A stretch of DNA of 37,843 nt from a virus. Positions 721 through 32,201 of this stretch are shown piece after piece. The stretch covers positions 1 through 37,843 of IMG/VR virus record IMGVR_UViG_3300025646_000133. One strand, given 5' to 3'. Positions within the stretch are counted from its first letter, which is position 1. Every line of letters starts with the position of its first letter. The notes under the pieces are model-generated. The model searched no databases. It saw only the letters and a list, made by a program, of their open reading frames with translations, and had not been told where the DNA came from. The position numbers and the translations under genes are program-made.

Positions 721-3700
721 TTAGATATTCTCAAACGAAGCACCAGTTGGGGTGATCAAGAATTCGATATCGATGAATTCAAGAGCCTTTGTTGGTTTCA
801 AGTAAATCTTACCTGTCATCGTATTTCTATCCAAGTCAGCAGGATCATTAGAAACTGTTACTCTAAAGTCGTAAAGACCACGGTCTCTTCTGATTGCGTC
901 TAAGATAGGGTTGACTGAGTCAAGGAAGTCTTGTCTAACTTTAGCGTCATTTTGTTCAAACAATAATCTTACCGCTACAGCCGATATCAACTTACGTGCT
1001 TGTAGTAACAATCTTCTTACGTTGATTCTGTTGAGAGCAGTGTCTGCGATCTGAAGAGTCTTGTTACCCCAAATAACTGTACCTACGTCAGAGAAAGTAG
1101 CAATCGGATTGATACGACCTTGATAAAGAGTGTCTCTTTGGTCTTGAGTTAGCTTGATACGTGCCTTGATAGCATTTACCAAACCTCTTGTGTAACCCGC
1201 CGTAGCGAACCAAGGGAAAGAAATGTTATCTGTAAGAGCCAAGTTTCTACATACTTCATTTGTTGGTGGAATGTAGATCTGAGTGTTATTTACAGTATCA
1301 CGAGTCAAAATCCAAGGATAGTAAGTCGCTGTGTAGTTTGAGTCAATACCCGTATTGTTCAAGTTATCTACAGCCTCAGTAGGAGGAACGATATTATCCG
1401 TATTTGTTGGAAGAAGTAAGTTACAATCAGGAGTAGTCACGATGTATAGTGAGTCAGCTCTTTGGTAAGTTACCATATCAATAGCCTGTTCTACCAAGTT
1501 CGAGTTGTTGATATAATCAATACCTGGTGTTGCAAACACGTTGATGTTTACCGCTTCAGGATTATTGAATGTAGAGATACCCAACAAGTAAGCGTAATAG
1601 TCAGATGTAGAGAATTCCGCAAATCCGTCTTGTGCGATCAATTTGAATGCTCCCCATCCATCTGCAAGTGGGTAACGTGTTGACTGACAAGCGCCTCTCT
1701 GCCACAAAGAACCACCAATTTGGTATCTGTCGTCATTAGTTCTATATTCACGGTAGATATCCCAACCATCAAAACCTCCTTGAAGAAGGAACGCAAACTT
1801 ACGAGACTGAATAGTGTAGTAAGGGTTTGCAGGATCTTGTGGGTCAGATTGGAATGAAGTATCACCACAATCAAACGCCGGTGTACCCGCAGTAGGACCT
1901 GCAGTGATTGTTACAACGGTTGCTCCCGAATCCATGTGGAAACCCTTAGTGACGTAATTCCAAGGTAATGCATCAACATTACAAAGATTACTTGGAGCTT
2001 GTTTTCCTTTGTATTGGAAAAAGTCTGGATCGTAACCAATAGAAGAAGAAATTCCTAAGAACGTACGTCTTATGTTATCACCAGGTGACAAAATTTGGTT
2101 AGGTCCATAAGGAATGTTGAAAGGTGGATTACCAATAACTTCCCCAGGGTAGTTGTATGCTGTTTTGTAGACTGGATATGGAGGTTGTGCTGATGCGTAA
2201 GAACGAATAACATAACCTTCGAATCCAGCCGGAACTGACGTAGGATCAACCTTATCATTCAATTCCAACATAATGTATTTTGAAAGAAGTGCGTACTCAC
2301 CATCCGCAGTACCGATTTTTACACCGACATAACTGTTACTTGACGGATCCATAGTACATTGTGTGAATTTTTCCAAATAAACAGGATTAGAGTCAGTGTC
2401 ATAGAAACTTCTGACACCCACGTCAAACGAAGAATTATTGAACGAAATGTTTTCGATGCTAATTTTGATTTGTGCATTTGCACCATTACCATCAGCAATT
2501 GATATAATTCTAAACAACCTATCAACAGAAGTACCATTTAATTCTGATACTACCCATGGAGACTCAGCATCTTGGTATTTTTCGACGTAGTTAGCAATTG
2601 TTGCCGTGTTAGGACTATATCTTAATCCAGGAAGTGCTAAAGGAGCACATTGTAATCCACGAATAAATCCTTGGTTGTAACCGTAATTCAACATATTTTG
2701 GAATTGTTCTTCAATAAACAATGGAACCTCATTTCTTGGTTTTCCGAAATTAGTTGTTCCAAATACTTTGGTAATGTAGTTTGCATCACCAGAATTCATA
2801 GAAGTTGCAAATGAGAAATCCGTACCGTCCGCAGTCACACCCGATAAATTGAATGTTGCGTAAGGATTGAAAGTAATGCCGGAATATATACCCGAACAAT
2901 CAATGATAACATCAGTAGTACCAGTCACAGTATAAGACGGACCATGTTGTCCTGTTGCATACAAAGATATACCACGAGATCTCCATGTTGCAACAACTAA
3001 GTCACCCCATCCATCATATGCGGTACCTACGTAATTGAATACTGAACCTGATACGGTACCTGAGAAACATCCCGAAGGACCAAATGGAACTAAAGTATCA
3101 ACAAGAGAAACGAATGAATAACCGGAATAACCAGTACCACCTGTCAAATCAAAGTTTGAGTAATACCAAGAGTCGTTATTTGGAGACGTATAGTCCGCCG
3201 TAGATTCTGACAAACCAGAAACGCCAAAAACGTTAGTCGACGCAGTATAAGTTGGTGAAAGAGCATTGTATGTAGCGTCGGAAATAGTTCCGAAGTAAGC
3301 AGCTGATGTACCCGAAGATGAAGGAAGATCTAGAATCCCTTGTAGGAAGTCAGACAAATCATCTTCGATTGTACTTTCACCCCCATTCAACATTGGATAG
3401 GGACTGTTTAGGTTTGTTAAAATTTGAGGTGCAAAAGCTCCATCAGTTGTAAAGGTGACTGCTGTACCACCGCTACATCCTGTAAATCCAATACTGAAAG
3501 GAGTCTCTATACCATTCAGAGCTACTGTTGATGGGTCTACGTTAGCTACTGTCAACAAAGACCAAGAAGGACCAGCATCATATCCAGAAAGACCAAGTAC
3601 ACGAGTTACAAATAATTGGTTAGACTGTTGTAGGTAGGACTTAGCGATATATGCTAACTCATATTTAGGAATTTGTGTGTTTTCAAATTTTTCGGGAAGA

Positions 3701-3885
3701 GTTCCACCGAAAAATGCTTCGAACTCACTGTAATTTGTTATAAAGATAGGCTCGAACGCGGGACCGATTTGTGTTTCACCAACCAGACCCAAAGTTGTTA
3801 CACCTACGCTTTGTGCCACAAAACTCAAATCTCTTTCAGAAGTGTATACTCCAGGAGATACGAAAATTTTATTTGATACTGCCAT
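721..3885 (-). CDS. 18: Contractile tail sheath protein (gp18-like), oversized
   Basis: This 1054-residue protein forms the contractile outer tube of the tail. The N-terminus (VSPGVYTSERDLSF, about residues 9-22) and the following GLVGETQIGPAFEP segment are typical sheath sequence. The C-terminal 250 residues contain the conserved sheath core: a segment on arginine-rich helices (NRINVRRLLLQARKLI), then a strand-rich end near GKIYLKPTKALEFIDIEFLI that makes contacts with neighbouring subunits. T4 gp18 is about 660 residues; the excess lies between about residues 100 and 520, a Gly/Ser/Thr-rich beta-like insertion likely exposed on the tail surface. The ATG at 3885 is preceded by ACAAA with no Shine-Dalgarno, and a TATTTAT element lies 42 nt upstream. 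It is transcribed alone or with the HAD gene. Confidence 0.95.
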   Translation of the reverse strand: MAVSNKIFVSPGVYTSERDLSFVAQSVGVTTLGLVGETQIGPAFEPIFITNYSEFEAFFGGTLPEKFENTQIPKYELAYIAKSYLQQSNQLFVTRVLGLSGYDAGPSWSLLTVANVDPSTVALNGIETPFSIGFTGCSGGTAVTFTTDGAFAPQILTNLNSPYPMLNGGESTIEDDLSDFLQGILDLPSSSGTSAAYFGTISDATYNALSPTYTASTNVFGVSGLSESTADYTSPNNDSWYYSNFDLTGGTGYSGYSFVSLVDTLVPFGPSGCFSGTVSGSVFNYVGTAYDGWGDLVVATWRSRGISLYATGQHGPSYTVTGTTDVIIDCSGIYSGITFNPYATFNLSGVTADGTDFSFATSMNSGDANYITKVFGTTNFGKPRNEVPLFIEEQFQNMLNYGYNQGFIRGLQCAPLALPGLRYSPNTATIANYVEKYQDAESPWVVSELNGTSVDRLFRIISIADGNGANAQIKISIENISFNNSSFDVGVRSFYDTDSNPVYLEKFTQCTMDPSSNSYVGVKIGTADGEYALLSKYIMLELNDKVDPTSVPAGFEGYVIRSYASAQPPYPVYKTAYNYPGEVIGNPPFNIPYGPNQILSPGDNIRRTFLGISSSIGYDPDFFQYKGKQAPSNLCNVDALPWNYVTKGFHMDSGATVVTITAGPTAGTPAFDCGDTSFQSDPQDPANPYYTIQSRKFAFLLQGGFDGWDIYREYRTNDDRYQIGGSLWQRGACQSTRYPLADGWGAFKLIAQDGFAEFSTSDYYAYLLGISTFNNPEAVNINVFATPGIDYINNSNLVEQAIDMVTYQRADSLYIVTTPDCNLLLPTNTDNIVPPTEAVDNLNNTGIDSNYTATYYPWILTRDTVNNTQIYIPPTNEVCRNLALTDNISFPWFATAGYTRGLVNAIKARIKLTQDQRDTLYQGRINPIATFSDVGTVIWGNKTLQIADTALNRINVRRLLLQARKLISAVAVRLLFEQNDAKVRQDFLDSVNPILDAIRRDRGLYDFRVTVSNDPADLDRNTMTGKIYLKPTKALEFIDIEFLITPTGASFENI

Positions 3886-5757: not shown

Positions 5758-7524
5758 TTGGAAGAACAAACTAACATATCAGCCGTTGGTGTTTTGGAAC
5801 GTAAGGCTTTGGAACTGTTGGAAAACTATGAAGGTGCCAACAATTATATCTTGCGCTTAAAAACCAAAATGTTGGATAATCCCAAGTTCTATCCAACTCG
5901 AGCTCAGTCTGAATACATCATCAATTTTCATTCAAGGGTACCAAAGGTAGCCAAGAAATGGGTAGATTTGGATCCGTACTTTGCACAAAAAATTGCGGAT
6001 GATAAATTGTTCACCACAGTACCCCAACAAATTTATATTGAAAAACTTCTTGTTGAGAAGGATACCTCCTACCATATTTGGGGGAAATTCTTTGAAAAAG
6101 ATTTTGTCTACGATCTTTGGATACCGAAAGTTGCTCTTATCAGAGACAACACGGTAAAGAATGTGGAGATTGATTATTCGAAATATTCGCATCGTCCACC
6201 ACTCGAACACCAAAAAGAAGCCATCCAAAAATTATGTGAGAACAAAAAGATGATATTGGCTGATGATATGGGTTTGGGTAAAACCACATCAACGATTATT
6301 GCCGCCTTGGAGACGGGGGCCAAGAAAATAATGATTATCTGTCCGGCATCTCTGAAGATCAACTGGCAGAGAGAAATCGAAAACTACACCGACCGCCCTA
6401 CATCAATTATTGAAGGAAAAAAATGGGAGGATGCCGATTTTATTATCATAAATTATGATATCATAAAAAACTTCCACGATGAAAAAAATAAAAAAGAGTC
6501 AATTATTCTTAATTCTAAGTTTGATTTGGTTGTTATCGACGAGGCCCATTACATACAAAATAAGCAAGCCCAAAGAACAAAACTAATAAACGACTTTGCC
6601 CTGAAGGTCGAACGACTGTGGCTTCTAACCGGTACCCCCATCACAAGTCGTCCTATCAACTATTATAACCTTCTCAATCTCATTGACTCACCTGTTGCGG
6701 TGAATTGGATGGCATATGTAAAAAGATACTGTAATGGATTTCAATTCCGAGCGGGTAAAAGAAAAGTGTGGAACGTCAGTGGTGCATCCAACTTAGAGGA
6801 ACTCCGAGACCGTACCAAACCACAAGTACTTCGTCGCCTGAAGGAAAACGTACTTGACCTACCCGATAAAATCATCACACCAGTATACCTAAGACTTCGT
6901 TCTAAGCAATATGAGGAACTTATGGGGGACTATTACGATTGGTACGATAAAAGTGGTGAGGCGGACTCCCTGACACTTCAGTTTACCAAATTGACTCAGG
7001 TTCGTCAGTGTATCGCCCAAGAAAAAGTATCCTCAACAATTGAACTCTGTGAGAACATTATCGAACAAGATAAGAAAGTCATTGTCTTTACAAACTTCAC
7101 CAAAACTCTTGAAATGATTTTAGAACATTTCGGGAAAAAGGCGGTAAGACTTGATGGTTCTATGAACCAAAGGGAACGTCAAGAATCGGTAGATAAATTT
7201 CAAAACGATGATTCTGTAAAAGTATTTGTTGGTAACATCAAAGCCGCAGGTACTGGTATCACTCTTACATCAGGTGAGGCTGTCGTTATGAATGATTTAT
7301 CGTTCCTCCCATCCGATCACTCACAAGCCGAAGACCGTGCATATAGATACGGACAAAAAAATAATGTACTGGTTTATTACCCCATTTTCGACAACACTAT
7401 TGAAGGAATTATTTACGATATTTTAGGTAAGAAAAAGGATATTTTCGAAACCGTGATGGGAGATAAGGAATCAACAGGTGACTATGTAGAAGAAATTCTA
7501 AAGTCAATCAACAGTAGAAGATAA
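5758..7524 (+). CDS. SNF2-family DNA helicase/translocase
   Basis: 588 residues with a full SF2/SNF2 motor. The Q-like motif is PLEHQKEAIQKL. Walker A is DDMGLGKTT with K175. Walker B is DEAH at 261-264. Motif III is LTGTP at about 290-294, motif IV VIVFTNFTKTLEMI, motif V GTGITLTSG. Motif VI is QAEDRAYRYGQ from residue 523, with the Arg fingers of SNF2 proteins. The DEGH/DEAH order and spacing resemble SMARCAL1-type annealing helicases. It probably remodels forks or recombination intermediates, the niche held by UvsW in T4. The first in-frame ATG lies at residue 33, so a TTG at 5758 is proposed; it has AAGGG 4-8 nt upstream, one of few Shine-Dalgarno-like sequences here. It is divergent from the gp14-like gene and has no exact TATTTAT on its strand, so its expression class may differ. 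Confidence 0.88.
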   Translation: MEEQTNISAVGVLERKALELLENYEGANNYILRLKTKMLDNPKFYPTRAQSEYIINFHSRVPKVAKKWVDLDPYFAQKIADDKLFTTVPQQIYIEKLLVEKDTSYHIWGKFFEKDFVYDLWIPKVALIRDNTVKNVEIDYSKYSHRPPLEHQKEAIQKLCENKKMILADDMGLGKTTSTIIAALETGAKKIMIICPASLKINWQREIENYTDRPTSIIEGKKWEDADFIIINYDIIKNFHDEKNKKESIILNSKFDLVVIDEAHYIQNKQAQRTKLINDFALKVERLWLLTGTPITSRPINYYNLLNLIDSPVAVNWMAYVKRYCNGFQFRAGKRKVWNVSGASNLEELRDRTKPQVLRRLKENVLDLPDKIITPVYLRLRSKQYEELMGDYYDWYDKSGEADSLTLQFTKLTQVRQCIAQEKVSSTIELCENIIEQDKKVIVFTNFTKTLEMILEHFGKKAVRLDGSMNQRERQESVDKFQNDDSVKVFVGNIKAAGTGITLTSGEAVVMNDLSFLPSDHSQAEDRAYRYGQKNNVLVYYPIFDNTIEGIIYDILGKKKDIFETVMGDKESTGDYVEEILKSINSRR

Positions 7525-7568: not shown

Positions 7569-9086
7569 ATGAAAAATATCAAAAACAAAATTCAAGTACT
7601 CGAAGAACGTATCCGTCAGAACGAACAACAACTTCACGAAGCCAAGAAAATCAGAGCCGAGAAATTACCTTACGGATATTCAGCCTTACGTCAGTTCATT
7701 GACCCCGAGACAATGAACATCCACTATAACAAACACTATAAAGGTTATGTCACCAAACTAAACGATGCGTTAGATGGAAAGAATTATGGTGACTTGTCAT
7801 TAGAGGAAATCATAAAAACAATCGAAAGATTTTCTAAAACCATTCGTGATAACGCCGGTGGAGCTTACAACCACGCAATCTTTTGGAAAATGTTATCCCC
7901 CACCGAGATGGAACCTAAAGGGGAAATCCTAAAAAAAATCAACTCGAATTTCGGATCTCTAACTAATTTCAAAAAGAAATTTGATGAATACGCAAAAAAA
8001 AGATTCGGTTCAGGATGGGTATGGTTGGTCCTAACAAAAAGGGGAACCCTCAAAATTATGACAACCGCAAATCAGGACAATCCTTTGATGAACGTTATAA
8101 AACAAGGGGGACATCCTTTACTCGGATTGGATTTGTGGGAACACGCATACTATCTAAAATATCGTAACAAAAGAGATGAATACATCAGAAACTTTTGGAA
8201 GGTAGTAAATTGGGAATTTGTTGAAGAAGAACTAAAACGACTCACTAACAAAAATCTTCAGGAAAGTATTTCTACAAAAAAAATACTAAAGGAACAATCT
8301 CAAATGAACTCATGTTCAGACCAAGAAAGAACAAGAATTAGAACAATGTTCAATAACAATCCTGATGTCTTGGAAATGTATAAGACCAGTATTATGGCTT
8401 TTTTGGAGGATGTTTTCAAAGATAAGCATTATGCAAGAAATGAATATGGTCCAAACACCGCAAGTGGAGTTTATGATTTAGAAAAACCAGGTCGTTCGAT
8501 AATAAATTATTTGAATACAAATTACAGTGCTTTCTGTCCACTACTTCGTGACTTAAATTTGGTCTTGAGCAGAGCAAACATGGATCCTATCAACTTTCAA
8601 GGTAAGACTAAAGAAGAACAGGTAAATGAAATGGCTCGTATGTTGGGATTTATAAACCAACTTAAGTTTAGAATTTTTGACCCTAATTCAAAGACGTTTC
8701 AGACTTTATTTAGAGTTTTAAGTCAAACATCAGGAAAAGGAAATAAAACCGAGGATGTTGTAGAGAAGAAATTCAAAGAAAAATTCGGGGCAGAAAACAT
8801 ACAAAGGATTGGAGAACTTGGTAGTAAAGAAGACATGATGGGTGTTGATATCAAGGTAATGATCGATGGAAAATTACACACAGCACAAGTAAAACCGTTC
8901 GATTCAATTAATAAAGAAGATGATTTAGTAAGAATCGGTGGTAGTGCAAACGTAAAGAAGTACAACACAGATTGGATGGTTTTTGTACGTAGAGGTAAAG
9001 ATATTGTTGTATTCGATAATACAAACTCCGAAATAAAAGACGGGTCATATTATTTTCCTGAAAATTCATTATTGTACCAATTCTAA
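7569..9086 (+). CDS. Mn-type superoxide dismutase fused to a putative PD-(D/E)XK (Mrr-like) nuclease domain
   Basis: 505 residues. Residues 1-30 are a charged helix. Residues 33-225 are a complete Fe/Mn superoxide dismutase, beginning LPYGYSALRQFIDPETM. All four metal ligands are present: H52, H102, D188 and H192 (LDLWEHAYYLKY). The active-site gateway H56/Y60 is kept, as are FGSGWVWLV and TANQDNPLM; Q169 in the latter position marks the Mn or cambialistic type. Residues about 245-505 are not SOD. They are helical to about 400, then an alpha/beta part has E416, D427 (GVDIKV) and Q440-V-K442, the D...QxK spacing of Mrr-type restriction-endonuclease folds. SOD converts superoxide to peroxide and oxygen; nuclease activity is inferred only. 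A SOD with such an extension is very unusual. It lies between a helicase and a neck gene, with its own TATTTAT element. Confidence 0.88.
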   Translation: MKNIKNKIQVLEERIRQNEQQLHEAKKIRAEKLPYGYSALRQFIDPETMNIHYNKHYKGYVTKLNDALDGKNYGDLSLEEIIKTIERFSKTIRDNAGGAYNHAIFWKMLSPTEMEPKGEILKKINSNFGSLTNFKKKFDEYAKKRFGSGWVWLVLTKRGTLKIMTTANQDNPLMNVIKQGGHPLLGLDLWEHAYYLKYRNKRDEYIRNFWKVVNWEFVEEELKRLTNKNLQESISTKKILKEQSQMNSCSDQERTRIRTMFNNNPDVLEMYKTSIMAFLEDVFKDKHYARNEYGPNTASGVYDLEKPGRSIINYLNTNYSAFCPLLRDLNLVLSRANMDPINFQGKTKEEQVNEMARMLGFINQLKFRIFDPNSKTFQTLFRVLSQTSGKGNKTEDVVEKKFKEKFGAENIQRIGELGSKEDMMGVDIKVMIDGKLHTAQVKPFDSINKEDDLVRIGGSANVKKYNTDWMVFVRRGKDIVVFDNTNSEIKDGSYYFPENSLLYQF

Positions 9087-9117: not shown

Positions 9118-10236
9118 ATGGCTGTAATTCCAGAACCAGAAAGAACCAAACTATATAACCGTATTCTCAATTTATTAGGGGCGCCACTCCGTGCTGTAGA
9201 ATTGGAGTATGAAATGATGGACTCACTATTGGAGTTAGCCGTCGGGGATTACGCTCAATATGTTCAAGATTGGTTGATCGAATCTCAATGGACTTCACTA
9301 TATGGATTGAATTTAGAGACTGAATCTTTGGCAAACGCTTTAATCAGAAGGTCATTAGATTGGGAAACTCAATATACTTACGCATATTCCAAAATTGCTG
9401 GATTACAAAATGCGGGTCCATATGTCCTAAAAAGAGATTATTTCGATCTTGTTCCAAACCAACAAATTTACGAAATACCCGCATGTAGAGAAATCAACCA
9501 ATTACTTTGGTATTCACCAAGTGAAATGAACAATATGTTGTTCGATCCTTGGTCATTCGGATCATTTGGTGGAGGTGGTGGATTAGGTGGTCCAGGTGGA
9601 TTTGCCCAAGCTGGTTTGGGTGGAGGAGGATACTTCTTCTTTTCATCTTATGATGTTATGTCTCGATTACAAGATATAAATGTAAAAAGAAGACTTATTC
9701 AGCCTGATTTACAATATCAAGTAACAGCCCTTCCCGATGGAAAGAAAGCGGTTTGGTTATTCAACACACCAGGGGGTAAATTTGACTTCGGTGATAATGA
9801 ATTAAGTAGAGGTAAAGTATGGTATTGGTACTATGAGGTATGTGGTGATGAAAGGGACCTTTGTTTGAAAGACAATCCTGACATTGTAAAATTACCATCT
9901 GACATTCCACTTGATGAAATTATGTGGATAGATCTTAACGAGCCATCAAAAGTTTGGGTCAGAAGATGGTTTACAGCCTACTGTAAAGAGACCTTAGCCC
10001 GAGTTCGTGGAAAATTCAGTGGAAATTTGAAAACACCTGACAGTGAAGTTACGATGGATTACCAATCCTTACAAACAGAAGCTAAAGATGAAAAAGTTAC
10101 ACTTCTAACTGAATTACAACAGAGACTAGAAAGATTACGTCCTGAAAACCAAATGAAAAAAGAGGCTGAAATTGCAACTAACTTAAATACTCAGTTGAAA
10201 TTTAGGCCGATGACTATTCCAATAACTGTTGTATAA
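9118..10236 (+). CDS. 13: Neck protein, gp13-like
   Basis: 372 residues. The N-terminus (TKLYNRILNLLGAPLRAVEL, residues 10-29) followed by a helix with DYAQYVQDWL is the typical opening of T4 gp13-type neck proteins, which dock on the portal and bind gp14. The C-terminal third supports this: DEIMWIDLNEPSKVWVRRWF leads into KETLARVRGKFSG and a TLLTELQQRLERLRPE helix, the same order as in gp13. A glycine-rich loop (about 148-171, GGGGGLGGPGG) interrupts the middle and is absent from T4; it may be a flexible surface insertion. The gene is on the + strand, away from the 14/15-like pair, so the T4 order is split here. Its stop overlaps the next gene's ATG (TAATG). Confidence 0.75.
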   Translation: MAVIPEPERTKLYNRILNLLGAPLRAVELEYEMMDSLLELAVGDYAQYVQDWLIESQWTSLYGLNLETESLANALIRRSLDWETQYTYAYSKIAGLQNAGPYVLKRDYFDLVPNQQIYEIPACREINQLLWYSPSEMNNMLFDPWSFGSFGGGGGLGGPGGFAQAGLGGGGYFFFSSYDVMSRLQDINVKRRLIQPDLQYQVTALPDGKKAVWLFNTPGGKFDFGDNELSRGKVWYWYYEVCGDERDLCLKDNPDIVKLPSDIPLDEIMWIDLNEPSKVWVRRWFTAYCKETLARVRGKFSGNLKTPDSEVTMDYQSLQTEAKDEKVTLLTELQQRLERLRPENQMKKEAEIATNLNTQLKFRPMTIPITVV

Positions 10237-13881: not shown

Positions 13882-15552
13882 TTAGGATTCTTTTCTCAGA
13901 TTACCATCGTAAAATTCGAATCTATCGTGTTCTGTAGGTGTCATCAATAACATACCCGGATGTAAATTACCCGCAACAGTTTCTTGGTACATGTAACTCA
14001 TCCAAGTTTGTTCGTATGGGTGTGCCCACTTTTCGGTTAAGAACATTTTCTTATTTCCTTCTTTTGTGACAACTTGTGGCCAATTACAGTAATAAATCTC
14101 CCCATTGATAAATGATACCCCCTTATAAGTTCTAATGTGTTTGAATTGAGTCCTCGGGGCATTAGGATCCTGTCCGTGGACAGGTAATTGACTTTTTTCA
14201 GGCCATCTAGATTCACGATAATGTTGAGGTACATTATACCAAGACCACTGAGTCCCATTATCACCAAAAAATTCAGAATAATTCAATTTTAGAAAATCAA
14301 AATTATTATTTTTTGTAATTTCCATAGAAATCCTATAAAGACCTTTCACATATCGGTTGAATCCATTTCTACATACCGTTCCTTCATTCGGGTAAAAGAA
14401 CATATCGTCTTCAAAAAACCAATAGAAGTCAAAATTATGTTCATCAGCATGTTCGGCAATCCATTGTCTTCCACCACAAATCCCTAAATTATCTTTCTTA
14501 ATATGTTCGAATCCAAATTCATTACATATTTCTTGATATCTTTCTGTTGTTGTAAGATCTGAAGAATTATCTAACAAAAATTTCCTTGGTTTATCAATAA
14601 AGTCTTTATCATATTTTATCATCGAAGTTATAAGAGTCTCAAATTGTTTGGGACTATTGAATGTTATGACATACAATGCGGTATTATCAATTTCTAAATT
14701 TTCATTTCTTGGTTGGATTGGTTCTTTAGATTTTTTTTCTAAGGTATCATTTTTTAAATCTTCAAAAAACTTACCCATTAATCCGTTATTTTCGATTTCA
14801 AAATAATTTACCAAATCGGGGTGTTTATAACAAAGAATTGTAAATAACGATTCTTCAGTACCCATAAGTCCTGAATTCAACGTATTACTCATCAAATTAT
14901 AATACAAACCATTCAAATCGGCAACACTTTCTTTTGGTCCTCCGAAAAAGCCACCTCTTGCAACCATATCAACTTTACTACCAGCTAATTGATTGATTTT
15001 TTGAAAATTAAAACCATGGATTTCCGTATTGGCTTCGTATGGAAAACAAACAAAAGAAAATTTATCAAAATATTTTGGTAATTTATCTTGTACTTTGTCA
15101 TGAGTGAAGTAACCAGGATGAACGGTATTACTTAGTCCAGCATCAATCCAAAATAAATAATCAGAATCAAATTGGTCCATAATTTTTGCATCATGTAACA
15201 AAAACATTTTTGACATAACTAATGGATTATACATCTCCAAACGTGCCTGTGTGGATTCTGATAACCATCCTGATTGAGCTAACCAATCTGGATTGGTTCT
15301 GATGTTTTGAATTTGATTATAAAATTCTGACTTAAACCAATTTTGATCTCTAACAATAAACTGAGTATTATCATCCCTCCGACGTTGTCTAACAAAATCT
15401 CCCAATTCTTGTTCACCAAAAATTATCAAGTTCACGTCCACTTCTAGAAGTTGTTCAAACTTTTGCAAATAATGGTCAAATGATCTAGACCATCCTTCCC
15501 CTAAGGTATCGCGTTTTATATTCCAAAGACCTGTAACAAAAGTAACTTTCAT
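13882..15552 (-). CDS. Two-domain glycosyltransferase: YibB/HtrL-like N-domain, GT-A C-domain
   Basis: 556 residues. Residues 1-265 resemble the HtrL/YibB family (glycosyltransferase-like proteins of LPS loci): VTFVTGLWNIKRDTLGEGW, MYNPLVMSKMFLLHDA and DYLFWIDAGLSNTVHPG, with the D137 region in the place of the metal-binding acidic site. A charged linker (about 266-290) leads to a GT-A domain. In that, ALYVITFNSPKQFETLI opens the Rossmann-like core, DNLGICGGRQWI is the nucleotide-facing turn, and WFFEDDMFF (E381-D382-D383) is the metal and sugar-nucleotide motif. It probably transfers two different sugars. It is the last gene of the six-gene - strand operon, 1 nt from the methyltransferase gene. 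Donor and acceptor are unknown. Confidence 0.8.
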   Translation of the reverse strand: MKVTFVTGLWNIKRDTLGEGWSRSFDHYLQKFEQLLEVDVNLIIFGEQELGDFVRQRRRDDNTQFIVRDQNWFKSEFYNQIQNIRTNPDWLAQSGWLSESTQARLEMYNPLVMSKMFLLHDAKIMDQFDSDYLFWIDAGLSNTVHPGYFTHDKVQDKLPKYFDKFSFVCFPYEANTEIHGFNFQKINQLAGSKVDMVARGGFFGGPKESVADLNGLYYNLMSNTLNSGLMGTEESLFTILCYKHPDLVNYFEIENNGLMGKFFEDLKNDTLEKKSKEPIQPRNENLEIDNTALYVITFNSPKQFETLITSMIKYDKDFIDKPRKFLLDNSSDLTTTERYQEICNEFGFEHIKKDNLGICGGRQWIAEHADEHNFDFYWFFEDDMFFYPNEGTVCRNGFNRYVKGLYRISMEITKNNNFDFLKLNYSEFFGDNGTQWSWYNVPQHYRESRWPEKSQLPVHGQDPNAPRTQFKHIRTYKGVSFINGEIYYCNWPQVVTKEGNKKMFLTEKWAHPYEQTWMSYMYQETVAGNLHPGMLLMTPTEHDRFEFYDGNLRKES

Positions 15553-15553
15553 C

Positions 15554-16162
15554 TTATTTCATTTTTTTTCTACATGCCCAAACGACATTTTTGAATGTTT
15601 CATGAAGATAACCTTCCAAATTATTTAATTGACAGGGACCTTCGATATCACTATCTTGAATTTCTAACCAACTCCAAATTGTATCATGGACGAATTCTCT
15701 GAAATAAGTTTCATTTGGGGAATAATCGTGTGCCATAATCACATCACCTACTTTTAATAAGTTAGATAAAATTCTAAACTCATTTTTCTTACTTCCTCCA
15801 TCACACAAAACTAAAGTAGTACCCTCGGAAGTTATAAAATCAATAATTTCTTGACCATTTTCCAAATCAGAATATTGGTGGTTGAATACGTTTTCAACTT
15901 TAATTTCGATGTTTGCACCATCATTTACGTGGTGTCTAAGATATTGTGGTTCATATACATCGTAGGTAACTAAACGTGTATCTGATAGACCAACTCTATC
16001 CAAAATATCTCTAATCATCAGAGTAAGTCCTCCTGATGATGTTCCAATCTCCAACACTTTCGTTGGTTTTAGATCAATCAAAAGCTCTTCAAAAGCCTTT
16101 TCTACATTGGGGTGTTGCATGATAGTTAACCCCTTATAAACAAAATGTCCCGAAACACTCAT
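15554..16162 (-). CDS. CmcI/cephalosporin hydroxylase-like SAM methyltransferase
   Basis: 202 residues. VLEIGTSSGGLTLMI (residues 37-51) is the glycine-rich SAM-binding motif I. VTYDVYEPQ follows as the acidic strand 2. VLCDGGSKKNEF (118-129) and GDVIMAHDYSP (139-149) match the CmcI / rhamnosyl O-methyltransferase pattern, where the Asp and His-Asp bind a metal. Members O-methylate sugars or hydroxylate antibiotics. Among glycosyltransferase genes, methylation of a transferred sugar is the likely job, perhaps as a chain cap. It is tightly packed (1 nt gaps) with its neighbours. Class I methyltransferase identity is sure; the substrate is inferred. Confidence 0.8.
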   Translation of the reverse strand: MSVSGHFVYKGLTIMQHPNVEKAFEELLIDLKPTKVLEIGTSSGGLTLMIRDILDRVGLSDTRLVTYDVYEPQYLRHHVNDGANIEIKVENVFNHQYSDLENGQEIIDFITSEGTTLVLCDGGSKKNEFRILSNLLKVGDVIMAHDYSPNETYFREFVHDTIWSWLEIQDSDIEGPCQLNNLEGYLHETFKNVVWACRKKMK

Positions 16163-16163
16163 A

Positions 16164-16895
16164 TTAAATTTTTCTTATTAGGTTTAGTGAAAAACTTGAA
16201 TTATCATGTATCAAGTAAGGTTGAGTTCCAAACTTTGTGGTGATAACACCGTTTTCAAATTTATAGTAAGTTTCATCCAACTCGGCGGTTGAAAAAAAGT
16301 ATTCCGAGTTCAGATCCTTACTGAGGTTATTTTCTTTCAAATTATAATATTGCCATACTCCTTGATCGTCCCAAAAATCTATGTTTGAATTCAAACAAAT
16401 CAATTCAAGTTCTTTAAGTATTTGATAAAATCGGTTTGTATTTGATATAACAGCCCCTGAATTCACATAAAAGAATTCTTTTTGTGGTAGTTTGGTTTCA
16501 AACCAATTGGATACTGAGTCAAGATAAGGCCAACAATTTTTTTCGGTTGATATTACTATTTTCTTCCCACTTTGATGAAAATTATCAAATAATTCTTTAC
16601 TACTTCTTGCAAACTTAGTGTCAGAATAATCAATATGTAATAAGTTGTCGTATTTCCCTAAAATTTTATCCTCGATGAATTTTCTCAATCTAAAAATTTT
16701 ACCAAAGACTAGATCTTTTCTTTTACTAACACCGACATCAGTAATATTTGAGAAATCAAATGGATTGAAATCGTTACTAAAATTCAAATAAAAATCTTCA
16801 TCATCGATATCATAAGCAAAACGTGATTTACATTCACTCTTTGATGGCTCCTGACATCCAAGACAGTAGTATGTAGAAATTATTGCGTTTTTCAT
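16164..16895 (-). CDS. Glycosyltransferase, lysyl-hydroxylase (PLOD)-type GT domain
   Basis: 243 residues. Key elements are KYDNLLHIDYSDTKFA (about 82-97), where D90 and D93 sit like the metal-binding DxxD of collagen galactosyl/glucosyltransferases; KIVISTEKNCWPY; FYVNSGAVISN; and DDQGVWQYY, with a late PYLIHDNS histidine. This order matches the GT domain of multifunctional lysyl hydroxylases and mimivirus L230, which glycosylate hydroxylysine on collagen. The acceptor here need not be collagen. The start overlaps the end of the paralogous upstream gene by 4 nt (ATGA). Family identity was made by motif order, not alignment. Confidence 0.65.
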   Translation of the reverse strand: MKNAIISTYYCLGCQEPSKSECKSRFAYDIDDEDFYLNFSNDFNPFDFSNITDVGVSKRKDLVFGKIFRLRKFIEDKILGKYDNLLHIDYSDTKFARSSKELFDNFHQSGKKIVISTEKNCWPYLDSVSNWFETKLPQKEFFYVNSGAVISNTNRFYQILKELELICLNSNIDFWDDQGVWQYYNLKENNLSKDLNSEYFFSTAELDETYYKFENGVITTKFGTQPYLIHDNSSFSLNLIRKI

Positions 16896-17629
16896 ATTAA
16901 GTTATACCTTTCAATTATTCTTGGACTTCCATAATTCCAACCATTATCATGAATAAAAAATGGAAATGAATTTGTGGGAATGTATTGTACTTTTCCATCA
17001 TTGATTTTATACCACTCCGCACTTGTCAAATAAGTACTTACAAATATATTACGACTAGTATCCAAAGTAATTTTTGGAAAAAATTCATTTATATAATAAT
17101 AGATGAATACACCTTGATCTCCACCAAATGTTTTATATTCAATTGGAAAAACGTGTTCAATAACAGATTCCAAAAAATCTGAATACAAATTTTTCTCACT
17201 CATCTGAAGCCCTGCATTCAAGAAATTAGATTTATCTAAGTTTTCTTGAGGGTATGTGTTTATGGGTTTCCAACTTGAAATATCATTAGGGTATTGATGT
17301 CTTTCGGCTGAGAAAATAATCCCACCTGTATACTCAATATCATTTATGTTTCCAACGCAAACTACATCAGTCGTGTCAGAGAAAATAAATACATCATCAT
17401 CAATAGACTTTAGTCGGTCAGATAACAAAAAAATTCTATATAATAAAAATTCATATTGATACCCAAACTTGGAATGAAACTCTTTTTCTAATTCCTCGTA
17501 ATTTGTTCGATTGTAATGAATATTGATAAAATCTTTCTCATTATTGTGTTTAATAAAACTTCTATAGAGGATTGTTTCTTCTATATGAGATTCATTCCCG
17601 TATGACCAAGTGACACTTATTAGTTTCAT
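16892..17629 (-). CDS. Glycosyltransferase, PLOD-type GT domain, paralogue of its neighbour
   Basis: 245 residues with the same layout as the next gene downstream: LISVTWSYGNESHIEETILY, KSIDDDVFIFSDTTDVVCVG (D-rich metal site, DTTD), GGIIFSAERHQYPN, FLNAGLQMSE, FGGDQGVFIYYYI and FPFFIHDNGWNYG. The DTTD, NAGLQ, GGDQ and HDNG steps match the ordered motifs of lysyl-hydroxylase GT domains more closely than those of the neighbour do. The pair probably arose by tandem duplication and may add successive sugars. It is 3 nt from the GT25 gene upstream. Confidence 0.7.
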   Translation of the reverse strand: MKLISVTWSYGNESHIEETILYRSFIKHNNEKDFINIHYNRTNYEELEKEFHSKFGYQYEFLLYRIFLLSDRLKSIDDDVFIFSDTTDVVCVGNINDIEYTGGIIFSAERHQYPNDISSWKPINTYPQENLDKSNFLNAGLQMSEKNLYSDFLESVIEHVFPIEYKTFGGDQGVFIYYYINEFFPKITLDTSRNIFVSTYLTSAEWYKINDGKVQYIPTNSFPFFIHDNGWNYGSPRIIERYNLI

Positions 17630-17632
17630 ATA

Positions 17633-18343
17633 TTACCACTTAGGAAATGATCTGATTATATATTCTTCCCAATGAGTTTCATAATGCCATAAATTACTAT
17701 ATGAAGAATATTGTGTTGTTAGTGATTTTTCATAACAAAGAGCGGTGAAATGTCTTTCTAAGACATCCAAAGGTTGATCCAAATTATAAAAATTCACACT
17801 GCTTGGGTTGGAAACCACATTGTATCCATAAACGCTCAGAGTTAACAATTCATCAATCGGAACGTTATTGTGATTATCATGTGGATATATTGGATATTTT
17901 TCCAAAATGTGCTTTGCAAAATCTTTTTTTATTAGATAAGATTGAGCATGAGAAACCGAAGATACTTCGTAACAATTATTTTCTCTTAATAATGGTGTCC
18001 TTCTGTTTCTACAACCTAACCAAAACAAATCCCATTCAGTTTTGTTTATATTATCAAAAATCTCGTTTGACTCCTCTATTAAAAAATCCAAAAACAAACA
18101 ATCATCTTCCAAAACTAACAAAGTTTCATGGTCGGAATCTACCAATCTTTGTAATAAGTCAAAATGACTTCTTTTACAATTTGTAGGCCCGGAATCTGTG
18201 CTTTTGTTCGCTGATACCCTTTCCACACCTTCTATCTTGAATTTAGAAAGTTGTGATTCTAATTTTTCACGTCTATCCGTTCTTTCATCTAAATTGATGA
18301 AATAACCAATGTCGGCAATTTTTTTACCATCAAACGTGACCAT
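17633..18343 (-). CDS. GT25-family glycosyltransferase
   Basis: 236 residues. IGYFINLDERTDRREKLESQ (residues 12-31) is the hallmark opening of GT25 LPS and collagen beta-galactosyltransferases. VERVSANKS and CKRSHFDLLQRL (56-67) follow, then LLVLEDDCLF with E79-D80-D81 as metal site. ASHAQSYLIKKDFAKHIL and PIDELLTLSVYG correspond to the later acceptor-side motifs. The catalytic set looks intact. It lies 2 nt after the GT60 gene, second in the six-gene operon. GT25 enzymes commonly use UDP-galactose, though this cannot be told from sequence here. Confidence 0.85.
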   Translation of the reverse strand: MVTFDGKKIADIGYFINLDERTDRREKLESQLSKFKIEGVERVSANKSTDSGPTNCKRSHFDLLQRLVDSDHETLLVLEDDCLFLDFLIEESNEIFDNINKTEWDLFWLGCRNRRTPLLRENNCYEVSSVSHAQSYLIKKDFAKHILEKYPIYPHDNHNNVPIDELLTLSVYGYNVVSNPSSVNFYNLDQPLDVLERHFTALCYEKSLTTQYSSYSNLWHYETHWEEYIIRSFPKW

Positions 18344-18345
18344 TA

Positions 18346-19593
18346 TTATAAATTACCTGTAATTCTCTCACACCATCCCTTAGATGTTGAGAATGGCCAA
18401 ACAACCCAATATGCTGGTTTGCTTTCCGTTTGGAATTCTCTCCACACTTTTCCGTAACCATCAGGGTCATTCATAATACGTTGAATTTCATTAATATCGG
18501 CATCTTTTCTGAAGAGAGTCTCATCATTTGCCCCGTGGAAAGCCACAACCCAAAATTCATAGTCTTTTTCTGGTACCGAAGAATAATTTATGTCAATGCA
18601 ATGTTTGAAAACAGATGCAAAGTTTTTCTTCCACTCATCTTCTGTCTCATAATTGTAGGGGTTCGGTGGATAATTTTTATCTAAGGTGTATTGTTGTACC
18701 GCTCTTTTTTCAAACAATAACCCAGCATACTTTTCATAGTCTCTTAGACTTCTTTCAGGTCCGAAACCAAATAATGCATCGTGACCTTCTTGTTCAAGAC
18801 CATCCATTCCAAATAATTTTCTATTGAGTAGGTGGGACTTATTGTTTCTATCAACCCATTTCTTATCATCATCCCATTGTTTGGTTCTACCTTTTCTTGT
18901 ATATTCGTGCCAAATGAGGACTTTGTGTGGGTGGAACAAGTCGTATCCCCATGTGTATGCTCGTGCGGAGATAGAAATTTCTTCCCCATGGAAGTAATAT
19001 TCAGGATTGTGTTGTACCTCACGTGAGAATTGACCCAAAGTAAAAGCATAGTGAGCCGAATAAAATCTTGCCGGTACAGGTTGTTTCATATCTCTCCAAC
19101 CAGGAATTGTCTCAGGTAGGAAAAATACCGCACCCTCAGGAATAAATCTGTCGAAAACCATTCTCCAAGGTTCTTGAACTCTTCCTTGTGGATCGTTATC
19201 AGGATCAAATGATGAAACATAACCAGTCAAAAGTGGTTTTTTGTGACCTTTTTTCTGAAGTTGTTTGACCATCTTAATCATCTCGTCATCCCAATTAGGT
19301 GCAAATCTCATATGAGAATCAATTTGAAGGGTATATTCTTCATCTTGATACAATTGTTGGACTAAATTCCTTGCCCAACATACACCCTCAGCTTCTTCGT
19401 GAGGAATATTTAAAATTCTGAAACGACTATCGTTTTCAAATTCTGACAAATCATCAAATTTATCGTCTGGATGAAATTGTCGTGCAACACCAATTCTAAG
19501 ATTTTTTGGTCTTTTGGCGTTTTCTAACATGTTTTTGATTGTAGGGATTAGCTGTGGGTCCCTATAAGAAGCGATTTGAACAAAAATTTTCAT
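18346..19593 (-). CDS. GT60-like polypeptide N-acetylglucosaminyltransferase
   Basis: 415 residues. It opens FVQIASYRDPQLIPTIKNML (4-23), then RPKNLRIGVARQF, GVCWARNLVQQLY and YTLQIDSHMRFAPNWD with the DSH site at 92-94. PARFYSAHYAFTLG and YYFHGEEISISARAYTWGYD follow. These are the conserved blocks of the GlcNAc family (Dictyostelium Skp1 GlcNAc-transferase type), which attaches GlcNAc to hydroxyl groups of proteins. The C-terminal 90 residues are a separate beta-rich domain (EFWVVAFHGAN). It is the first gene of the operon and sits directly downstream of the Thr/Pro-rich fibre genes, making those linkers attractive acceptors. A TAnnTTTG-like box lies upstream in place of a TATTTAT element. 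Confidence 0.85.
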   Translation of the reverse strand: MKIFVQIASYRDPQLIPTIKNMLENAKRPKNLRIGVARQFHPDDKFDDLSEFENDSRFRILNIPHEEAEGVCWARNLVQQLYQDEEYTLQIDSHMRFAPNWDDEMIKMVKQLQKKGHKKPLLTGYVSSFDPDNDPQGRVQEPWRMVFDRFIPEGAVFFLPETIPGWRDMKQPVPARFYSAHYAFTLGQFSREVQHNPEYYFHGEEISISARAYTWGYDLFHPHKVLIWHEYTRKGRTKQWDDDKKWVDRNNKSHLLNRKLFGMDGLEQEGHDALFGFGPERSLRDYEKYAGLLFEKRAVQQYTLDKNYPPNPYNYETEDEWKKNFASVFKHCIDINYSSVPEKDYEFWVVAFHGANDETLFRKDADINEIQRIMNDPDGYGKVWREFQTESKPAYWVVWPFSTSKGWCERITGNL

Positions 19594-29958: not shown

Positions 29959-30363
29959 ATGAAACTTCTCAAGGCTCTGACACATCTAATTACCGAAGCC
30001 GCGTCTATAGATGATATAAGACGTGCTATCGATCAAAAACAAGTGTGCTCAATTTATTATGATGGTGATGAACCAGGTGGTAAGGGTCTTAGAGAAATTG
30101 AACCAGTTGCTCTTGGTAGGTCAAAAAAGGGTAACTTAATTTTTAGAGCGTGGGATCAGGCAGGAGCGTCCCATACAGCGTACCTCAACGACCCACACAG
30201 CCCCAAACCAGGGTGGAGATTATTTCGTGTGGATAGGACAAGTATGTTCAAACCATTACGAAAGAACTTTACTAAAGCTCGACCTGGTTATAACTTTGAT
30301 GGTGATAAAGATATGACAAGCATAATTACTATCGCTAAATTTGATACAAGAGAAACAGTATAA
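29959..30363 (+). CDS. WYL-domain-like protein
   Basis: 134 residues. DIRRAIDQKQVCSIYYDGDE (residues 19-38), REIEPVALGRSKKGNLIFRAW (45-65) and PGWRLFRVDRTSMFKPLRK (84-102) reproduce the order of a WYL domain: the helix before strand 1, the IxPxxL step, and the R-F-R-x-D-R end. The core Trp-Tyr-Leu is replaced by LIFRA, so ligand use may differ. WYL domains usually bind nucleic acid or nucleotides and control transcription or defence systems. No HTH is attached here. It lies among small genes of likely virion role, and its stop overlaps the next ATG (TAATG). Confidence 0.7.
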   Translation: MKLLKALTHLITEAASIDDIRRAIDQKQVCSIYYDGDEPGGKGLREIEPVALGRSKKGNLIFRAWDQAGASHTAYLNDPHSPKPGWRLFRVDRTSMFKPLRKNFTKARPGYNFDGDKDMTSIITIAKFDTRETV

Positions 30364-30989: not shown

Positions 30990-32201
30990 ATGTCCAAAAT
31001 CAAATTATTGGTAATTCCTTCAGATAAAACAGGAGTTGGTAAATTCAGATCGTTAGATCCTCACATTTTTCTACAGAACATGTATCCCGAAGATTTTCAT
31101 ATTGACATCTTATATGATGTTGATATGAATGATGATGCCTTTTGGAAAAATTACCAAATTGTTCATTTCCACAGAACCATCGGACCTAATTATGATTTGA
31201 TGGAATCATTCTTAGCCAAGTTGAAGTCCTTTGGTATTGTAACAATTATGGATTTGGATGATTATTGGATGCCAGGGAAGGAACACCCTATCCATGACTT
31301 GATTATTGCAAATAAGTTACACGAAAAAATCCCACGTAACTTAAAGAATGTTCAACATGTAATTACAACTACGACTGTGTTTGCAAATGAGATAAAAAAA
31401 TACAATAAAAATGTTGTTATATTTCCGAACGCCATCAATCCAGATGAACCTCAATTTAAGGAACCAACAATCAAATCTGATAAACTTAGATTTGGTTGGT
31501 TAGGAGGATCATCTCACCTTCATGACTTAATGATTTTGGATGGATTGTTCACCAAAATGAATCCATTAAAAGATAAAACACAATTCTTTTTATGTGGATT
31601 CGACATACGAGGTACGGTTACCGAAATCAACCAAGTCACAGGTCAACAAAAACAAAGACCAATTCAACCCAAAGAGACTGTATGGTATAAATATGAAGAA
31701 ATCTTCACTAACAAACAATCTCTTATTTCTCCTGAGTACAAAGACTTTCTTATGAACTTTAAGGAAGAAGATGATAGCTCATTCTCTGATGAATTCTATA
31801 GAAGAGTGTGGACACGACCAATCCAAAATTATGCAAAGAATTATGCGAAATTTGATGTGTCTATGGCTCCTTTAAAGAATCATATATTCAATAGAGTAAA
31901 GTCACAACTTAAAGTTATTGAGGCTGGTTTCTATAAAAAAGCACTTATCGCATCGGATTTAGGTCCTTATACTATTGACCTAAAACATTCATTACAAAAT
32001 GGTAATTTTGTGGATGGGAATGCCCTATTGGTTAAAGAGGGACGTAACCATTCTGATTGGTTTAAATACGTAAAAAAATTGATAGATAACCCTTCATTTG
32101 CTGAAGATTTGGGTGAAAGATTATATGAAACAGTTTCTCCAGTATATGACATCAAAATTGTGACAAAAGCAAGAGCAGAATATTATAAATCTTTAGTATA
32201 A
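30990..32201 (+). CDS. GT-B-fold glycosyltransferase
   Basis: 403 residues. The first half has KIKLLVIPSDKTGVGKFRSL, WKNYQIVHFHRTIG and TIMDLDDYWMPGKEHP, the N-terminal Rossmann fold of GT4-like enzymes, with FPNAINPDEPQF bridging the two domains. The second half starts LRFGWLGGSSHLHDLMI, the glycine-rich donor-binding entry, and later has KVIEAGFYKKALIASDLGPY, which corresponds to the conserved E-x7-E region of GT4 (a sugar-nucleotide contact). A loop of about 60 residues near 225-285 is atypical. It is the first gene of the second glycosylation operon and is followed after 1 nt by the exonuclease gene. Confidence 0.85.
   Translation: MSKIKLLVIPSDKTGVGKFRSLDPHIFLQNMYPEDFHIDILYDVDMNDDAFWKNYQIVHFHRTIGPNYDLMESFLAKLKSFGIVTIMDLDDYWMPGKEHPIHDLIIANKLHEKIPRNLKNVQHVITTTTVFANEIKKYNKNVVIFPNAINPDEPQFKEPTIKSDKLRFGWLGGSSHLHDLMILDGLFTKMNPLKDKTQFFLCGFDIRGTVTEINQVTGQQKQRPIQPKETVWYKYEEIFTNKQSLISPEYKDFLMNFKEEDDSSFSDEFYRRVWTRPIQNYAKNYAKFDVSMAPLKNHIFNRVKSQLKVIEAGFYKKALIASDLGPYTIDLKHSLQNGNFVDGNALLVKEGRNHSDWFKYVKKLIDNPSFAEDLGERLYETVSPVYDIKIVTKARAEYYKSLV

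Follow-up and report, generated by a model that had tools for sequence, protein, structure and literature searches.

A gene that joins a superoxide dismutase (SOD) to a domain expected to act on DNA raises the question of where, and in what form, such a protein works in the life of a phage. The gene studied here lies in a 37,843-nt stretch of viral DNA (the window; positions 1 to 37,843 of IMG/VR record IMGVR_UViG_3300025646_000133), a fragment that also encodes a tail sheath and a DNA polymerase of family B.

The SOD-nuclease gene and its domains

ORF 7569-9086 is a genuine SOD-nuclease fusion gene, with the following main parts:

7569..9086, + strand: the whole ORF, a SOD-nuclease polyprotein (ATG start, 505 aa)
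7650..8234, + strand: Mn-type superoxide dismutase domain, residues 28-222 (Pfam, conservation)
8313..8732, + strand: helical half of the C-terminal domain, residues 249-388 (AlphaFold2; fold barely probed)
8733..9083, + strand: PD-(D/E)XK nuclease-fold domain, residues ~389-505 (E395, D427, Q440, K442)

At least 80 homologous loci were kept in a scan of viral contigs, with identities of 52-100%, and both domains were spanned in all of them, two (L011 and L035) ending prematurely at a contig edge. Conservation was assessed in two alignments: set A, in which at least 81 homologous ORFs, including that of the window, were reduced to 50 distinct sequences, and the wider set B of 49 rows (46 with SOD and 3 without), sharing less than about 93% similarity and at least 480 aa long. 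The initial annotation had proposed a SOD half and a non-SOD C-terminal half in one ORF, and this was borne out across these loci and the 50 distinct sequences; its assignment of the C-terminal 260 residues as non-SOD was sound in kind, but the boundary was refined, with non-SOD sequence beginning at about residue 223 and the nuclease fold occupying only residues ~389-505. A chance in-frame fusion, an assembly artefact or a decayed gene could be suspected from one locus of a later scan (L107:4213-5777), where SOD and nuclease lie in two different reading frames of one contig, the result of a frameshift or a sequencing error. This explanation is practically negligible, and already refuted, because the fusion is conserved in so many loci and at such a range of identities. 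The 505-aa product gave no match in a PHROGs profile search at E up to 0.1, and no Pfam family was over cut-off C-terminal of residue 220. In cellular genomes, 74 stretches matched by two peptide patterns yielded no relatives of the C-terminal domain by tblastn, and the domain looks phage-restricted at the sensitivity of that search.

The SOD half was matched over cut-off by the Pfam families Sod_Fe_N (residues 31-110, 3e-21, 75.9 bits) and Sod_Fe_C (residues 116-220, 2e-41, 140.4 bits). The metal ligands H52, H102, D188 and H192 (three His and one Asp) and the outer-sphere Q169, all named in the initial annotation, are present and were invariant in 50/50 distinct homologues, the window included. 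Q169 lies within NQDNP and is accompanied by a GG pair; both are features of Mn-type SODs. The active-site residues thus support an intact Mn-type SOD, with predicted dismutase activity.

An AlphaFold2 model of the C-terminal domain, made with 49 aligned sequences (pLDDT 93.6, pTM 0.85), consists of a helical half and a PD-(D/E)XK restriction-endonuclease-like fold. E395 and D422 were invariant in 50/50 sequences of set A and 49/49 of set B, while D427, Q440 and K442 were invariant in the 49 of 50 set-A rows that reach them and in 49/49 of set B; the predicted fold and the conservation of D427/Q440/K442, on which the first reading had staked its nuclease domain, were thus both found. The order E...D...(E/Q)xK, here E395...D427...Q440xK442, is the active-site pattern of the PD-(D/E)XK superfamily. 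When the model was compared with the PDB, Foldseek ranked the homing endonuclease I-Ssp6803I first (E 0.011) and Hjc resolvases next. VIA-align gave Z 9.2 against Hjc 2wcw_D (rmsd 3.3, 103 residues) and Z 8.2 against I-Ssp6803I (103 residues), values that are middling by themselves, as models without a clear relative commonly reach Z 7-8, and the structural matches span only residues ~140-257 of the domain model. Judged by title, 18 of the best 20 VIA-align rows were DNA nucleases (Hjc, NhoI, Eco15I, I-Ssp6803I, HhaI, SPARDA), and the other 2 were tRNA-splicing endonucleases. Because the best rows agree and the invariant E...D...QxK residues follow the superfamily order, assignment of the domain to the PD-(D/E)XK superfamily is well supported, with nuclease activity as a prediction.

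The more specific proposal of an Mrr-like nuclease survived only as to the restriction-endonuclease fold and its conserved D/Q/K. Membership of the Mrr family was rejected: there was no Mrr profile match in Pfam at E up to 0.1, and the nearest folds were instead Hjc resolvases and I-Ssp6803I. The PD-(D/E)XK fold is common to these enzymes and the phage domain, but the latter has an extra helical half, is fused to SOD, and has no detected sequence similarity to them; a PDB sequence search with the domain profile returned only two chance matches (E 0.13 and 0.19). The T4 head-completion nuclease gp4, a head protein with a restriction-endonuclease fold (PMC7824862), was also considered as an identity for the domain.

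Among BFVD structures, the best match to the C-terminal domain was A0A6J5L953, a 501-aa protein of an uncultured Caudovirales phage named "superoxide dismutase" (TM 0.93, 37% identity), and the next was A0A8D9CCA0, a phage protein of 1113 aa. The earlier statement that no SOD with this partner had been described holds for the papers listed, as the titles and abstract openings of these open-licence PMC articles disclosed neither a phage SOD-nuclease fusion nor a SOD in a phage head, but UniProt A0A6J5L953 is apparently the same fusion, present as a database entry alone.

Putative protease sites around the SOD

The segments on either side of the SOD domain contain motifs that resemble processing sites:

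7569..7640, + strand: N-terminal leader, residues 1-24, capsid-targeting-like and mostly variable (alignment, low pLDDT)
7632..7640, + strand: putative site L22-H23-E24 / A25, just ahead of the SOD start (E24 conservation)
8235..8312, + strand: linker, residues 223-248, with two putative sites (conservation, pLDDT, entropy)
8256..8264, + strand: putative site L230-Q231-E232 / S233 (conservation)
8286..8294, + strand: putative site L240-K241-E242 / Q243 (conservation)

Three [L/I/V/M]-x-E motifs, LHE24, LQE232 and LKE242, bracket the SOD within a variable leader and linker. Each of the glutamates was present in 50/50 sequences, always with L, I or V two residues earlier except for one M at 240 (residue 22 was L/I/V in 50/50), and S233 was likewise invariant in 50/50. 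Column entropies across the 46 SOD-bearing rows were 0.3, 0.0 and 0.15 bits for E24, E232 and E242, against medians of 1.84 in the leader and 1.87 in the linker. E232 and E242 are the linker columns of lowest entropy; in the leader (residues 1-27), conservation is higher still at I8 and K26 than at E24, which therefore does not stand alone. The full-length model has only two runs with pLDDT below 50, residues 18-25 and 228-232, and two of the three motifs fall in or adjoin them.

The pooled searches gave 114 distinct SOD ORFs (the L202 query alone gave 78 loci); these sequences are related and [LIV]xE is a weak motif, so that the following counts are not independent events. In 110 of the 114, [ILVM]xE was found ahead of the SOD in a 10-aa window ending 3 aa before xLPY, compared with a background of 17.5% for 10-aa windows of the same ORFs, and the remaining four (L157, L158, L160 and L161) have I-x-E slightly further upstream of xLPY. 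A tandem [ILVM]xE pair within 36 aa after the SOD was present in 95 of the 104 ORFs that extend more than 100 aa past it (background, 6.4% of windows elsewhere); the other nine retain at least one motif by eye, and the second linker site is lost in L151 and L272. The residue after the pre-SOD motif is often the Met that opens a canonical SOD, as in ...LLITE/MKKIGIEKLPY (Met in 79/110). Internal translation initiation at this position is impossible in the window, which has Ala25 there.

In T4, the prohead protease cleaves after Glu at P1 with L or I two residues earlier; Alt, for example, is cut at ITE-6 and LTE-619, and giant-phage relatives cut at S/A/G-X-E (PMC5694885). T4 core proteins shed short N-terminal peptides and the capsid protein gp23 sheds 65 residues, and a capsid-targeting sequence of about 10 aa directs foreign proteins into the T4 core (PMC9958956). 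The [L/I/V/M]-x-E motifs of the polyprotein match the sites of the T4 prohead protease, gp21, and would presumably be cut by an enzyme of that type. An N-terminal leader ending in [L/I]-x-E, a mark of T4-type capsid-targeted gp21 substrates, was found as LHE24, with [L/I/V]-x-E24 in 50/50.

Genomic setting and exchangeable partners

The gene was initially placed between a SNF2 helicase and a neck gene, as is seen in the window:

5758..7524, + strand: SNF2/UvsW-type helicase, upstream neighbour (profile match, synteny)
9118..10236, + strand: head-tail adaptor (neck) protein, PHROG 211, downstream neighbour (profile match, synteny)

Synteny extends this placement to the homologues. Where the contig leaves room, the helicase lies upstream on the same strand at 208/208 loci and the neck gene lies downstream at 209/209; these counts take in the SOD-less L137, L138 and L140, and certain contigs contribute more than one locus. 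The gene lies by the helicase and neck genes, outside the gp20-gp23 cluster. Of the other window genes, that for the tail sheath protein (721-3885, - strand) encodes an unusually long product of 1054 aa, in which the main sheath profile matches only residues 766-1052 and leaves the large stretch before 766 unmatched.

The two neighbours suggest different sites of action. The helicase gene, the Hjc Holliday junction resolvases among the nearest folds, and the stand-alone SOD of Vibrio phage 2.275.O, which adjoins a topoisomerase gene, would all suit an uncut bifunctional enzyme in the cytoplasm during infection, a resolvase-like or repair-like nuclease whose fused SOD lowers local oxidative damage. 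It is an unlikely reading, opposed by the invariant [LIVM]xE motifs in low-confidence linkers, by the SOD start Met that often follows directly after the motif, and by the persistence of SOD while its partners are swapped or absent. The adjoining neck gene, together with forms of SOD without a partner at the same locus (9/114 distinct ORFs), would fit a virion protein, whole or cut, that is structural or passive cargo (e.g. neck-proximal or portal-proximal) and in which SOD only protects stored virions. That role is rather improbable, as it would leave the invariant active-site residues of both enzymes needless.

The partners of the SOD are varied. Among the 114 SOD ORFs, 92 carry a nuclease of the window type, four another nuclease type (one of these twice), four a 343-aa tail, three a 150-aa domain and one a 405-aa partner, while nine have no C-terminal partner and the split L107 completes the set. 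In 14/114 the chain has an additional N-terminal domain that contains an HExxH motif; in L240, L275, L209, L232, L237, L239 and others it is about 130 aa long (HEW[VIT]H), lies ahead of the SOD and resembles a metallopeptidase, and no Pfam match over cut-off was obtained for any of those scanned. The 343-aa partner, seen in L240:3566-5662, L275:3611-5689, L251 and L252, has a D...SCK pattern and may be a further nuclease family. In L202:2297-4915, which turned up in a search with a nuclease paralogue from the 322-kb relative G001, the chain reads leader, SOD, nuclease, LTESTRKNRLLLE/G and a second nuclease, with an LxE cassette before each nuclease. The C-terminal partner of L232:2641-6558 recurs as five stand-alone neighbours of 148-149 aa that flank the fusion and have N-terminal leaders of their own, four beginning MxIII[ST]ESQYK and one MKIIITENQYK.

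The nuclease also occurs apart from SOD. The G001 paralogue (L087:105-1061) matches the C-domain profile with E 4e-10, carries the leader MKITISEGQYKILSE, and is situated in the head cluster, flanked by gp21 and by the gene preceding gp23, which was termed scaffold-like by position only, PHROGs giving no match. SOD-less L138 retains a leader and an ILSE/S site, while L137 and L140 are without leader and read P-[TS]-E rather than LxE. In a C-domain tree built by a quick method, L137/L140 and L138 fall among the SOD-bearing rows, only a hint that SOD was lost in them; outgroup rows are on very long branches and the placement of LR756501 is unreliable. The stand-alone C-domain gene of LR756501, used as a query, found no viral relatives.

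Related contigs were searched for the protease and capsid protein that such processing would involve. The gp21 family (PF03420) was over cut-off in 10/29 related contig records of unstated completeness (3/9 and 7/20); neither the window record nor two long contigs near-identical to it (G013 and G014, 64 and 62 kb) yielded a match, nor did the related records G002, G022 and G023 (200, 215 and 224 kb). The capsid protein gp23 (PF07068) was found in 5/8 related records and not in the other 3/8, and in 5/5 cases it reads ...ENQAS[HF]LINE/A at residue ~60, resembling the cut that removes 65 residues from T4 gp23 (PMC9958956). Among named isolates, the capsid proteins closest to these come from Microcystis phage Mel-JY01, Flavobacterium phage immuto and Rhodothermus phage RM378 (36-41%); that of immuto (40.8% identity) reads IVSE/A, and the immuto protease has LLTE/S near its start.

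Leaders of this kind recur in G001, where [ILV][STN]E...[ILVMF]xE occurs within the first 40 residues of 29/304 products of at least 80 aa, a pattern written after the matches had been seen, compared with 8.1 +/- 2.2 for internal windows (at most 16 in 500 draws) and 5.3 +/- 2.2 for shuffled N-termini (at most 14 in 500). A tighter LTESDL-like word lies within the first 20 residues in 13 products and deeper in the chain in 1. The linker of the polyprotein, e.g. KLTESTKMKQILSEG in L071, resembles these N-terminal leaders (MKKIKLTESELTNIVKRVLEEQ). A 23-aa consensus leader, a very short query, found no match in the phage collection. In the window itself, a 134-aa protein (29959-30363, + strand) starts MKLLKALTHLITE/AAS, a short leader like T4 capsid-targeting sequences, and may likewise be packaged by this phage.

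The conserved glutamates might instead be structural, as helix caps or inter-domain contacts, with the fusion merely a favoured domain pair. The evidence for the sites is drawn from sequence, and I8 and K26 are likewise kept in the leader; on the other side, the motif is seen again where other domains are joined (L202) and as an N-terminal leader elsewhere in a related phage, by the post hoc G001 count given above. Such a purely structural role is very improbable.

A head-packaged polyprotein as the proposed explanation

The best explanation, considered fairly probable, is a modular head-packaged polyprotein that would be cleaved by a gp21-type protease and deliver SOD and nuclease with the phage DNA, a proposal that draws on invariant active-site residues, the predicted fold, the conserved cut-like motifs, gp21 and a capsid cleavage motif of T4 type in related contigs, and partners exchanged at one locus. 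A virion or ejection role is favoured over a free cytoplasmic bifunctional enzyme because the linkers resemble protease sites and the architecture is modular, with exchangeable parts. Counting against it are the records in which gp21 or gp23 was not found, the weakness of [LIV]xE as a motif, the equal conservation of I8 and K26, the P-[TS]-E of leaderless L137 and L140, the second linker site lost from L151 and L272, the leaderless SOD of Vibrio phage 2.275.O, and the position of the gene outside the gp20-gp23 cluster. The phage would be a large T4-like virus in which the short N-terminal leader sends the polyprotein into the prohead core, where a gp21-type prohead protease would cut after LHE24 and in the linker, at LQE232 and/or LKE242. 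Expected from this cleavage are a leader peptide, an Mn-SOD that is active and begins like a canonical SOD, and a PD-(D/E)XK nuclease as a separate protein. Packaging and cutting, taken together, are held with moderate confidence. SOD and nuclease would then remain in the head alongside the DNA and be carried into the cell at infection, as are T4 Alt and the internal proteins; injection and the catalytic activities of both enzymes are parts of the proposal. In the least certain step, SOD would most likely remove superoxide around the incoming (or packaged) genome and the nuclease would cut host or competing DNA, functions that the present evidence suggests weakly. Modification could shield the phage's own DNA. 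Several predicted glycosyltransferases are encoded in the window (13882-19593, - strand, and 30990-32201, + strand), one of them with weak similarity to profiles of TET-associated and HMC glucosyltransferases, which hints at DNA or surface glycosylation and makes them candidate agents of such protection.

A wider reading, given slightly less than even probability, is that the portable LTES...LxE leader/linker cassette is a general head-cargo system of these T4-like phages, cut by the prohead protease. The cassette would act as a leader at the N-terminus of many small proteins and would also separate domains in frame, allowing several enzymes per chain, with Mn-SOD a standing passenger beside exchangeable DNA-attacking or other effectors, disarming an oxidative response or protecting the ejecting genome.

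The nearest known counterparts are T4 Alt and the internal proteins IPI-III, which likewise have a leader ending in I/L-x-E and an enzyme cargo (PMC9958956, PMC5694885); T4-type gp21 and gp23 are present in related contigs, and the SOD is bracketed by cut-like sites much as Alt is cut at both ends (PMC5694885). They differ from the protein described here in that its cargo is SOD and nuclease, its cut-like sites lie between two enzymes, and its packaging is presumed. The polyvalent proteins of phages and plasmids combine several unrelated activities in one chain, undergo shuffling and are predicted to be ejected, and some have metallopeptidase domains (Iyer et al. 2017, PMC5512222). Disparate predicted activities, combined and shuffled in one chain, were found in the architectures above as well, but unlike the polyvalent proteins described there these include SOD, and processing by a gp21-type protease in trans is proposed for them; "superoxide" and "dismutase" have no occurrences in the main text of PMC5512222.

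Virus-encoded SODs are known elsewhere. Chlorovirus PBCV-1 packages a SOD in its virion, but that enzyme is of the Cu/Zn type and belongs to a eukaryotic virus, and the available text of PMC7019647 mentions no nuclease fusion. The jumbo phages PA5oct and Vibrio 2.275.O encode Fe/Mn SOD homologues that are stand-alone, 26-30% identical and without a nuclease partner, and a SOD is found among metabolic genes in the freshwater contig MW462191. The PA5oct homologue (EST35_0261, L292:1510-2058; 182 aa, annotated hypothetical) starts MNDSIKKYISIAE/AASSVKKIPIPYS, an IAE/A leader, while the SOD of 2.275.O has no leader of the IAE/A type at its N-terminus. The record of this PA5oct homologue carries a note of ESI-MS/MS, as do 19/53 features of the neighbouring 50-kb stretch, including all 11 termed structural protein. 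Since DNA ligase, MazG, FtsH and ClpP are noted too, and the notes may include non-virion proteins, this is supportive of a virion SOD rather than proof of it.

Capsid-targeted gp21 substrates and polyvalent ejected proteins (PMC5512222) are known kinds. What appears new is SOD as the constant member of such a chain, joined through cut-like cassettes to nuclease partners that can be exchanged, for which no precedent appeared among the papers listed. If the proposal is true, a redox enzyme joins the ejected arsenal of phages, and superoxide would be a hazard at or before genome entry. The leader/linker cassette would then allow ready recognition of ejected effectors in uncultured large phages, and would represent a natural cleavable tag for the delivery of several enzymes. 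The reason for SOD genes in large phages would likewise become a directly testable question.
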